From positions 3,909,001 through 3,973,000 of the forward strand of contig NZ_CP017174.1 in the NCBI RefSeq assembly GCF_006402735.1: DNA of 64,000 nucleotides. Reading direction: 5' to 3'. The position numbers and the translations under genes were made by a program. This stretch comes from Myxococcus xanthus. Lineage in GTDB: Bacteria; Myxococcota; Myxococcia; Myxococcales; Myxococcaceae. Under the pieces are notes generated by a model that saw only the letters and a list, made by a program, of their open reading frames with translations, did not search any database and was not told the DNA's origin. Of this stretch, positions 12,999 to 16,190 are shown in pieces; within the stretch, counting starts at the first letter, position 1, and every line of letters starts with the position of its first letter.

Positions 12999-14018
12999 AT
13001 GTCCCAACCCTCGCGAGCGCCCCGGACCGAATCCCGTGTCCTGGGCCCCACGGAACCAAGCCCCATGGTCTCCGGTCCTCCTGGTCTGTCACGCCGTCCT
13101 CGCCCCCGGCGCATCATCGCCGTAGGAGGCGGGAAGGGCGGTATTGGCAAGTCCATGGTGTCCGCCAACCTGGGCGTGGCCCTGGCCCAATCCGGGGCCA
13201 ACGTGCTGCTCGTGGACGTGGACCTGGGCGGTGCCAATCTCCACACATGCCTGGGGGTGGGGCAACCCAACGCGACGCTGTCCGACTTCCTGCGGCGGAA
13301 CAAGGCGCAGCTGGAAGAGGTCATCGTTCCGACGGGCGTGCCCCGGCTGTCGCTGATCGCCGGCGCGCAGGATGCGCTGGACGCGGCCAACCTCAAGTAC
13401 GCGCAGAAGCAGAAGCTGCTGCGGACGTTGATGGGCACGTCGGCGGACTACCTCATCCTGGACCTGGGCGCGGGGACGAGCTTCAACACCATCGACTTCT
13501 TCATCCTCGCCGACCACGGCGTGCTGGTGATGCTGCCCGAGCCCACGTCGGTGGAGAACGCCTACCGCTTCGCGAAGGCGGCCTTCTTCCGCAAGCTCCA
13601 GCAGGTGGAGTCGCAGTACGGCATCGAGGACCTGGTGGAGGATGCGCTCACCACCCGCGAGGGGGCGCTGCGCACCCTGCATGACGTGCTGGCGCAGGCC
13701 CGGCGCAAGGACCCGGTCATCGCGGACCGCCTGGAGCGCGAGCTCTCCGCGTTCCGCATCCGGCTGATCGTGAATCAGGCGCGTACGGACGCGGACCTGT
13801 CGGTGGGCGCCTCGGTGGCCGCCGCATGGAAGAAGTTCTTTGGCATCGAAATGGATGTCCTGGGTGCCATTCGCTACGACGACGAGGCGTGGCGAGCGGT
13901 GCGCAAGCGCAAGCCCGTCCTCATCGAGCGACCGGATTCCGCGGCGGCCACTGCCATTCAGGTCATCGCAACGCGTATCCTCACACTCGACGGCTCCCCC
14001 CAGCGCTCCACACCATGA
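12999..14018 (+). CDS. MinD/ParA-family P-loop ATPase
   Basis: 339 residues. After a Pro/Arg-rich 38-residue leader comes the deviant Walker A GGGKGGIGKS (43-52), with the signature Lys in KGG, then LLVDVDLGGANLHTCLG and Walker B YLILDLGAG. This is closest in feel to the FlhG/FleN and orphan MinD group rather than chromosomal ParA, because no ParB gene follows. The gene overlaps the next by four bases (ATGA at 14015-14018). A role in positioning of cell-pole or surface machinery is a context-free guess. Confidence 0.88.
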   Translation: MSQPSRAPRTESRVLGPTEPSPMVSGPPGLSRRPRPRRIIAVGGGKGGIGKSMVSANLGVALAQSGANVLLVDVDLGGANLHTCLGVGQPNATLSDFLRRNKAQLEEVIVPTGVPRLSLIAGAQDALDAANLKYAQKQKLLRTLMGTSADYLILDLGAGTSFNTIDFFILADHGVLVMLPEPTSVENAYRFAKAAFFRKLQQVESQYGIEDLVEDALTTREGALRTLHDVLAQARRKDPVIADRLERELSAFRIRLIVNQARTDADLSVGASVAAAWKKFFGIEMDVLGAIRYDDEAWRAVRKRKPVLIERPDSAAATAIQVIATRILTLDGSPQRSTP

Positions 14019-15841
14019 AGCCCTTCGAGCAGCAGACCTATTACGAGATTCTCGAAGTCCCCGTCACCGCTCCGATGGAGGAGATTCGGGCGGCATACGA
14101 ACGGCTGATGGAGCTGTATTCGCCGGACTCCATCGCCGTCTATGCGCTCGTGGACGAGGGCCAGGTGGATGGGCTCCGCACTCGGATGGCCGAGGCGCTG
14201 GAGATTCTCTCCGACGAAGAGCTGCGCGCCGAGTACGACAAGGATCTGGGGCTCCCGGCCCGCCGGTTGATGGACGCGGTGTCGACCGGGGGCGAGGTGG
14301 CCCACGCCGAGGCGCCGGTGGAAAAGCGTGCGGAGCCGGAGCTTGTTGGGGTTGCCGCATCCGGCGCGGAAGATCAGACTGGCGGCCTTTTGACACAGGT
14401 CCCCGAAACGGGGACGAACGGGAGGCCAGGAGCAGTGCGAGACGTGCCGGTGGAGGACTCGGAGACCGCGATGACGGGGCGGGACGGGGAAGGGGAGGCC
14501 GCGGCCAATGCGACGGAGCCTCGAGTGGAGCCGGTGCCGGCGTCCTCGGGGCAGGCGGACTTCCGGGCGTCGTTCTTCCGTGGGTTCTCGTTCGCGTATG
14601 TGTCCAGCTCGTTGCAGGACACGCAGCGGCTGGGGAGCGCGGTGGATGTTCCCGCTTCGTCGATTCAGCCCCAGGTTTCCGGTGGTGGGACGGGCACGAT
14701 GGCTGCGAGCGCTGAGTCGCAGCGCGAGGCCTCCGGGGCGGTGCCTGCGGCGTCGGTGGGTGAGACGGCTGTGACCCAGGGGGCTGCTGCGGTGGCGCCT
14801 GGTACTGTTCCGGCCAGCGAGGCTGCTTCGGTTTCCCCGAGCGCCCCTTCGGTAACGGGCAGCGCGCCGATTCCGGCGACGTCTCCGCAGGTCAACGTCA
14901 GCGTCCCTGCTTCGGGCAGTGATGCCTCGGTGACTGCTTCTGCCGCTGTGCCGACGCCTGCTACGGCAGCCACTGTCAGCGCGCCGGCTTCGGTCAGCGA
15001 TGCACAGGTGACTGCTTCTGCCGTGCCGCCGCCTGCATCGGGAGCGGCCGTCAGCGCGCCGGCTTCAGTCAGTGATGCCCCGGCGACGGCTTCGGCCGTC
15101 GCACCGACTCCCGCCTCGGCCGCTCCCGTCAGTGCCCCGGCGTCGGAAAGCAGTGCCACGGTGATTGCCCCGGCAGCTCCGGCCAGTGGCCCAGCCGCCG
15201 CGTCGGTTCCCACGCAAAGTGCCACGGTCAGCGCCGTGGCGGCGCCATCCCCCTCGGCGCCTGCTACCGCCGCGCCTGGCGCCCCGACATCGGAAGCCAG
15301 CGCGGAGCCCCTCCCGCCGGTTCTAGCGAGCGCCAGCCCGGTACCTCCGGCCCCCCAGGCACCCGAGGCCGACTCGACCGCCCTCGTCCCTGTCCGTCCG
15401 TCGCCCGCCTCGGCGGCTCCGTCCGAGCCGGGCCGGGCTGGGGCGCGTCCCGGGCGGCCCCTGGAAGACGCGCCGCAGATCGCCCAGGACTCCGCCATCG
15501 CCACGGCGGAGGCGGCGCTGGCGCAGGTGTCCCAGGCCGCGTCGAGGGCCCGTGAGCCCCGGCCTCGCGTCCCGGACATCCCATCCGACGCCGAGTTCAA
15601 CGGCGAGCTGCTCCGCCAGGTCCGAGAGGCCCGGGGGATGACCCTCCAGCAGGTGGCCGACCGCACCCGCATCACGCGCATGCACCTGGAGAACGTCGAG
15701 GCGGACCGCTACAACCTGCTCCCGCCCTCGGTCTACCTGCGAGGTATCCTGATGAGCCTCGCCCGCGAGCTGGGGTTGGATCCACTCCGCGTCTCCAAGA
15801 GCTACCTGGCCCTGTCTTCTGAGAAGTCAGGCCGGAAGTAG
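14015..15841 (+). CDS. J-like/HTH fusion protein with a long Ala-Ser-Val-Pro repeat linker
   Basis: 608 residues from MKPFEQQTYYEILEVP, the start overlapping the ATPase stop. Residues 5-85 match a J-domain layout (YYEILEV, AAYERLMELY, EALEILSDEELRAEYDKDLG), but the catalytic HPD loop reads SPD, so it cannot stimulate Hsp70 in the normal way. Residues about 100-500 are low complexity and include four tandem 25-26-residue repeats. Residues about 525-595 form a RodZ-type Cro/HTH domain (RQVREARGMTLQQVADRTRI, then ENVEADRYNLLPPSVYLRGI). RodZ has a membrane helix after its HTH; here the HTH is at the C-terminus and no helix is visible. The coupling to a ParA-like ATPase suggests a joint positioning or cytoskeletal role, which is inference. 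Confidence 0.8.
   Translation: MKPFEQQTYYEILEVPVTAPMEEIRAAYERLMELYSPDSIAVYALVDEGQVDGLRTRMAEALEILSDEELRAEYDKDLGLPARRLMDAVSTGGEVAHAEAPVEKRAEPELVGVAASGAEDQTGGLLTQVPETGTNGRPGAVRDVPVEDSETAMTGRDGEGEAAANATEPRVEPVPASSGQADFRASFFRGFSFAYVSSSLQDTQRLGSAVDVPASSIQPQVSGGGTGTMAASAESQREASGAVPAASVGETAVTQGAAAVAPGTVPASEAASVSPSAPSVTGSAPIPATSPQVNVSVPASGSDASVTASAAVPTPATAATVSAPASVSDAQVTASAVPPPASGAAVSAPASVSDAPATASAVAPTPASAAPVSAPASESSATVIAPAAPASGPAAASVPTQSATVSAVAAPSPSAPATAAPGAPTSEASAEPLPPVLASASPVPPAPQAPEADSTALVPVRPSPASAAPSEPGRAGARPGRPLEDAPQIAQDSAIATAEAALAQVSQAASRAREPRPRVPDIPSDAEFNGELLRQVREARGMTLQQVADRTRITRMHLENVEADRYNLLPPSVYLRGILMSLARELGLDPLRVSKSYLALSSEKSGRK
14897..15205 (+). repeat. Four in-frame tandem repeats of 75-78 bases
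   Basis: Units begin at 14897, 14975, 15050 and 15128 with GTCAGCG or GTCAGTG. Each encodes about 25-26 residues of the pattern VSAPASxSDAxVTASAVxPTPASAA. Units two and three are nearly identical at the DNA level over their first 30 bases. The fourth is degenerate at its 3' side. Confidence 0.85.
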
Positions 15842-15926: not shown

Positions 15927-16190
15927 ATGACGGACGAGGAAAAGGTCAAGGCGATGCGGCTCGCCCGTGCGATTGCCTCGGATATCTCGCTCTACAACGA
16001 GCAGAAGATCATCAAGGGAATCGAACAGGACAACCTCTTCGAGGTCCTCAAGGAGGAACTGGAAGAGGGCCGCGAGCTCTACAAGAGCCGCGTCAGCCAG
16101 GAGATCTTCACGAAGATGAATTTCTTCGAGCGGGCGATCAACGACATCGTCCTGCGCTCGAAGGCGCATGTGAAGTCGAAGATCTGGTAA
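15927..16190 (+). CDS. Small conserved hypothetical protein upstream of rluD
   Basis: 87 residues, highly charged and mainly alpha-helical, with no signal peptide and no membrane segment. It starts MTDEEKVKAMRLARAIASDI and ends with AHVKSKIW. Its codon use is like its neighbours. I do not recognise a named domain. It ends eight bases before the rluD start, so the two are very probably co-transcribed. The regular helical make-up and Tyr/Phe spacing (SLYNEQ, NLFEVLKEEL) suggest a small helical bundle or partner-binding protein. Confidence 0.75.
   Translation: MTDEEKVKAMRLARAIASDISLYNEQKIIKGIEQDNLFEVLKEELEEGRELYKSRVSQEIFTKMNFFERAINDIVLRSKAHVKSKIW

Follow-up and report, generated by a model that had tools for sequence, protein, structure and literature searches.

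In the window analysed here, a stretch of 64,000 nucleotides of Myxococcus xanthus DNA (contig NZ_CP017174.1, positions 3,909,001 to 3,973,000), a gene for a MinD-type ATPase is followed by an overlapping gene for a protein that carries an N-terminal J-like domain and a C-terminal RodZ-type helix-turn-helix (HTH) domain, called the J-HTH protein below. The ATPase and J-HTH gene pair is conserved across three bacterial phyla, and the J domain of the family has the J fold without HPD, the motif that activates Hsp70. The reading proposed is that an orphan ATPase of MinD/FlhG type has a repurposed J domain as its partner, tethered to a RodZ-like module; its chance of being correct is put a shade below even.

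Many MinD/ParA-type ATPases are called orphans, their partner unidentified (PMC10241942). The J-HTH protein is a conserved partner candidate with a defined fold for such an orphan, in a group that includes genetically tractable members. New here are fusions of J domains to the ATPase, both in front of it and behind it, and these natural fusions point to the J domain as the one that meets the ATPase. If the reading is true, a J domain works on an ATPase other than Hsp70. A search of the open literature, with subscription papers outside its range, found no earlier description of the pair.

Conservation of the gene pair

The ATPase gene (12999..14018; plus strand, as are all window features given below) encodes 339 amino acids and was assigned as a relative of FlhG and FleN by Pfam ParA/CbiA, PDB sequence matches, and AlphaFold and Foldseek. 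The J-HTH gene (14015..15841) encodes 608 amino acids, as read by translation from ATG to stop and by Pfam. A start at 13826, the choice of the open reading frame caller, was rejected in favour of the MKPF start, which the family conserves and which yields a four-base ATGA overlap (14015..14018) with the ATPase gene ending at 14018. In 27 of 37 loci the calculated overlap is likewise four bases. The first-pass annotation had described an overlap with a ParA/MinD-like ATPase; the overlap stands, and the ATPase is nearest to FleN, FlhG and MinD rather than to chromosomal ParA.

Co-occurrence of the two genes was checked across genomes. The Myxococcota survey covered 146 genomes and counted ATPase hits from 200 bits upwards; the J rows taken for pairing reached down to 55.9 bits, with two lower-scoring rows adjoining ATPase hits also included. 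Among the matches listed, there were 119 such ATPase hits in 111 genomes, and 103 of them had a J-like gene directly downstream on the same strand. Ten of the remaining 16 hits were re-read: two had J and HTH downstream (G057, G060), one was an in-frame fusion (G007), one had an HTH alone in the ATPase frame (G017), and six had neither J nor HTH. The total after re-reading is 106 of 119 ATPase hits paired or fused, among the matches listed. The other six unpaired ATPases (G117, G067, G070, G128, G088, G119) had no J-HTH gene alongside.

The pair also recurs in two further phyla. In Desulfobacterota, the phylum of the Desulfobacula genome (118 genomes), 13 of 30 loci read were paired, among the matches listed. 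The phylum of a SAR324 genome (52 genomes) had 23 of 30 loci paired; a further locus is truncated where its contig ends, and six are unpaired. The two genes are kept together even where the Myxococcota neighbours (HNH, an 87-amino-acid gene and pseudouridine synthase) were not seen alongside (L043, L044, L170-L178).

Five J-HTH genes have no adjoining ATPase gene (G043, G096, G117, G088, G138). All five still adjoin the 87-amino-acid and pseudouridine-synthase genes, with HNH on the other side in G117, G088 and G138 and an SLT gene in G043 and G096, these neighbour families being assigned by similarity to the window genes. G117 encodes a paired-group ATPase at another site (L156), and G088 carries an ATPase of a second group.

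A J fold without HPD

Pfam DnaJ matches the J-HTH protein at residues 8-75 (14036..14239) with 41.7 bits (cut-off 27.8), and a PDB sequence search led to J-domain proteins. An AlphaFold model built from alignment A1 (18 rows) reached a predicted local distance difference test (pLDDT) score of 80.9. For this model, 40 of the 50 rows listed by Foldseek have a J-domain protein, complex or chimera in their title, and the remaining ten belong to large complexes, with titles that leave the matching chain unnamed; the top match had an E-value of 8.8e-4 and a TM-score of about 0.6 by query length. A chance J-like match was rejected on the Pfam score, the AlphaFold fold and the Foldseek matches, and the J-like N-terminus read in the first-pass annotation is borne out by the predicted structure.

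As that annotation had also noted, SPD stands in the HPD position (14120..14128; sequence, alignment A1 and family counts), and the J-HTH protein has the fold of a J-domain protein without the motif. Across the family the site reads SPD, APD, DAD, GPG or others, with Ser mostly next. HPD occurs in none of the 78 distinct family J domains scoring at least 62 bits and in 12 of 12 canonical J domains scoring below 62 bits with the same family model. The 62-bit cut was chosen by the analyst; the counts made without it found no HPD among 88 distinct J domains in frame with an HTH, nor among 91 once later loci were added. His is the first aligned letter of the site in 11 of the 88, none of which is HPD. 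Other J-domain proteins without HPD are known, such as Tim16/Pam16, which share the J fold without the motif; here, in contrast, the protein with the J fold also carries a RodZ-type HTH and has a MinD-type ATPase as its paired gene product. In M. xanthus, 16 J-domain proteins have been reported, and the J-HTH protein is undiscussed in the text covered (PMC10313047).

Fusions of J domains with the ATPase

In one Myxococcota genome, the counterparts of the two window genes form a single open frame of 737 residues, in which ATPase (204.9 bits), J (38.4 bits) and HTH (62.2 bits) follow in that order (L223; G007:C8:89000-93500). In another, ATPase and HTH share a frame with no detectable J domain, where a frameshift is possible (L218; G017).

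Fusions with the J domain in front of the ATPase occur in Desulfobacterota, in the same ATPase family. Among ten family proteins picked for their long frames, six had a Pfam DnaJ match ahead of the ATPase, over the cut-off in L051, L052, L167 and L168 and under it in L050 and L166. Since L051/L052 and L167/L168 are close pairs, the count comes to about four independent N-terminal fusions. HPD is visible in seven of eight members of the N-terminally fused group, including L053 (minus strand, by eye), and L056 lacks it.

Because J domains are fused to the same ATPase family and also paired with it in operons, we infer that the J domain docks on the ATPase. A direct J-ATPase partnership is likely, and the gene arrangement suggests physical contact.

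The MinD/FlhG-type ATPase

The nearest PDB sequences of the window ATPase (P0002) are FleN and FlhG, which also match its AlphaFold model best and are its closest solved relatives by sequence and fold. Its Walker A motif, KGGIGKS, is of the deviant MinD/ParA type, and DLGAG occupies the place of FleN DTAAG. The profile alignment to FleN skips positions 159-210, leaving about 50 extra family residues (13578..13730, borders approximate) that are mostly helical in the model, with helices at 182-207, 210-217, 227-237 and 239-250. The membrane-targeting helix of FlhG was considered for the C-terminus, where, in the model, the last ATPase helix leaves nine residues.

FlhG has an N-terminal motif, DQAxxLR. 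It is absent from the window ATPase, and DQAESLR or DQADSLR starts all three Myxococcota FlhG genes read beside flhF. FlhF scored over the cut-off in 28 of 146 Myxococcota genomes; in G000, one of the genomes that has the window-type ATPase without FlhF over the cut-off, the best match reached 72 bits against a cut-off of 174. The ATPase gene lies not beside flhF or flagellar genes but among SelA, HNH, the 87-amino-acid gene and pseudouridine synthase. That it is the true FlhG of a flagellar system was rejected because FlhF over the cut-off and DQAxxLR are lacking and it falls on a separate tree branch.

The tree comprised 74 rows (71 of the family and three FlhG, the latter from the same phylum only); it was a quick tree made without bootstrap, with long branches flagged, and it left out L223 and the SAR324 loci except L113. 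Rows labelled 'noJ' are those with no J found nearby. The 71 family rows separated from the three FlhG rows with a Shimodaira-Hasegawa-like approximate likelihood ratio test (SH-aLRT) value of 100, the deep order being unresolved. Paired ATPases formed one group (SH-aLRT 95; 37 rows, made up of 35 paired, the relocated L156 and the partnerless L049), and the ATPases with an N-terminal J domain formed another (SH-aLRT 94; eight rows).

Second members of the ATPase family sit in flagellar clusters of Myxococcota (L150:14431-15390, L151:12062-13009, L152:4201-5217). In L150 and L151 this member has no J partner and lies between motB and motA, and behind it in all three is a FliJ-like open reading frame that scores 31.8 bits in L152 (cut-off 28.4) and, below the cut-off, 26.8 in L150 and 20.9 in L151; these neighbours indicate that the family has a flagellar branch. 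A J-less family ATPase in Desulfobacterota (L162:3550-5138) has a PilZ gene directly upstream and an HDOD gene downstream, and one in KSB1 (L042:5767-7041) has a GYF_2 domain fused in front.

The linker and the RodZ-type HTH

Pfam HTH_25 is found at residues 532-590 of the J-HTH protein (15608..15784) with 66.5 bits. The first-pass annotation was right to call it a RodZ-type HTH at the end opposite to that in RodZ: RodZ has an N-terminal HTH followed by a transmembrane segment, whereas the J-HTH protein has a C-terminal HTH with a J domain in front, and its hydropathy, at most 1.0 over 19 residues, makes a transmembrane segment unlikely. Between the two domains lies a flexible, low-complexity linker of about 430 amino acids (14300..15589; composition and per-domain identities), rich in Ala, Ser, Pro and Val and formed in part of 75-78 base repeats (14896-15146; Tandem Repeats Finder). 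In five comparisons, identities were 51-94% for J, 70-95% for HTH and 24-71% for the linker, and linker length ranges from 37 to 478 residues across the family. Among 231 loci, 117 frames carry an HTH, and 116 of these also hold the J domain; the loci were retrieved via ATPase or J matches, and many of them are mutually redundant.

With an HTH model built from J-HTH proteins, the profile search ranked the RodZ relatives CT009 (4gqm; 57.2 bits), 3fym (51.1 bits) and Thermotoga maritima RodZ (2wus; 46.9 bits) above XRE-type regulators, which scored at most 22.6 bits. MreB binding by RodZ depends critically on F60 and Y64, which correspond to Y66 and F70 of CT009 (PMC4047632). When these places were assigned via alignment to CT009 and 2wus, the first was Tyr in 82 of 84 family members, and the second (n=82) was Ile in 33, Phe in 30, Tyr in 15 and Met in four. 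These features of the HTH favour a protein partner, though they may suit any HTH_25 domain.

Proposed mechanism and rival explanations

The ATPase would be an orphan within the MinD/FlhG group, cycling between monomer and ATP dimer as its family suggests. The J-like domain may dock on it and control the ATPase cycle, replacing the usual Hsp70 partner, as operon pairing and fusions suggest. A flexible tether would connect the J domain to the RodZ-type HTH, and the HTH might hold a second partner, for which MreB or another protein is perhaps a likelier candidate than DNA. The module could then position an envelope or motility assembly, a candidate cargo, or keep its number in check. A wider proposal is that the J domain was recruited as a regulatory partner of MinD/FlhG-type ATPases: in three phyla it would act in trans and lacks HPD, in one fusion it follows the ATPase in cis, and in the N-terminal fusions it precedes the ATPase in cis and mostly retains HPD, so that the J fold would control two unrelated ATPases and the HTH would couple the switch to the cytoskeleton. 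This is possible, with the balance tipping modestly against it.

ParA-ParB and McdA-McdB have a two-gene layout of ATPase and partner. The window pair resembles these ParA/MinD (A/D) systems in that layout and in ATPase family. A/D ATPases are described as ATP-sandwich dimers whose partners act via a positively charged disordered N-terminus (PMC10241942), whereas the J-HTH protein has a folded acidic J-like domain there. The nearest functional precedent for a link between a J protein and an FlhG-type ATPase is SflA, a DnaJ-domain protein that acts genetically with FlhF/FlhG in Vibrio (PMC7226244). SflA differs in that it is a membrane protein, has a TPR/Sel1-like part in the periplasm and carries its DnaJ domain at the C-terminus; it is described as Vibrio-specific (PMC7226244).

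Several observations weigh against the proposed partnership. The first 30 residues of the J-HTH protein carry a net charge of -3 and are folded in the model, unlike the N-termini of known A/D ATPase partners. Three genomes that are 98-99% complete (G043, G096, G138) have a J-HTH gene and no listed ATPase match at E 1e-20, where 15 of 19-23 first-look candidates were scored, and the J-HTH protein may thus exist without the ATPase. Conversely, 17 of 30 Desulfobacterota loci have a family ATPase without a J neighbour (one of them a fusion), and in Desulfobacteraceae the ATPase is kept where the HTH is gone and only the J domain remains (L047:2967-3239, L055:6876-7151) or where the whole J-HTH gene is gone (L049:6840-7171). 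The three-domain fusion is known from one frame in one genome, and the fused J domains in front of the ATPase mostly keep HPD, so the J part there may still serve Hsp70. The paired and fused ATPase groups are not joined with support in the tree, which leaves a single origin of the J-ATPase link unsupported. As for MreB, the window protein has Ile at the second contact, where 45 of 82 members have an aromatic residue.

The first-pass annotation had called the two genes a candidate new positioning pair. Co-occurrence and the J-ATPase fusions uphold the pair; for positioning, the one pointer is the family of the ATPase, and the partner is without a basic disordered N-terminus, so such a role stays conjectural.

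Among the alternatives, a regulatory pair like FleN-FleQ fares best and is nonetheless unlikely. The J-HTH protein would bind DNA via its HTH, and the FlhG-like ATPase would switch it on or off. In parA-parB, the order of genes is the ATPase followed by an HTH protein, which the window order resembles. The ATPase is moreover nearest FleN, which, by structure titles, works on the regulator FleQ; HTH_25 is one of the XRE-type folds; and the HTH end has a net charge of +4. Against this, the start of the recognition helix is among the least conserved HTH positions (entropy 1.96, 3.22 and 3.10 bits) and the fourth helix is conserved. The RodZ HTH is also reported as not DNA-binding (PMC6946637).

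Quite unlikely is a RodZ-like cytoskeletal adaptor that binds MreB independently of the ATPase, the pairing being an inherited neighbourhood. It would account for the profile matches to CT009 and T. maritima RodZ and for the three genomes with a J-HTH gene and no strong ATPase match among those listed. MreB scored over the cut-off in 139 of 146 Myxococcota, but it is nearly universal and its presence says little for this adaptor. Co-occurrence with MreB was likewise set aside as uninformative; of the seven Myxococcota without MreB, three have the pair (G131, G071, G045), all assemblies of at least 330 contigs. The adaptor would also lack a likely transmembrane segment and carry its HTH at the opposite end, the pairing persists in three phyla with differing neighbours, and fusions link J and ATPase.

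The least probable of the three is that the J-HTH protein, as a DnaK co-chaperone, recruits Hsp70 to the ATPase or to the cargo of the ATPase, since, for all its J fold and the HPD mostly kept in the N-terminal fusions (where Hsp70 recruitment may be the older state), HPD is found in 0 of 91 J domains in frame with an HTH against 12 of 12 canonical ones, and with the motif lost the J-HTH protein should not act in that way.

For the partnership of ATPase and J domain, type IV pili were tried as cargo and rejected. PilT was over the cut-off in 135 of 146 Myxococcota and is present in 106 of 106 genomes with the pair. None of the 11 genomes without PilT has the pair, but eight of these 11 are small genomes of one family, and kinship explains the match equally well.

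Neighbouring genes and minor observations

By Pfam, the window neighbours are a transglycosylase SLT gene, SelA and HNH upstream and a pseudouridine synthase downstream. Of 69 loci retrieved, 48 were used, the 21 weak or partial ones (L057-L077) being omitted. One record labelled Comamonas sp. KCTC 72670 (L011; BNCN01000021.1) carries this Myxococcus locus at 96% identity, possibly through mislabelling or contamination.

Downstream of the J-HTH gene and ahead of the pseudouridine-synthase gene, the window has a gene for an 87-amino-acid protein (15927..16190), taken as a neighbour only. Searched against Pfam and NCBIfam up to E 0.1, it gave no match and has no family assigned, and it is conserved between the same two genes in 16 loci, including one in a Desulfobacterota genome (L039).

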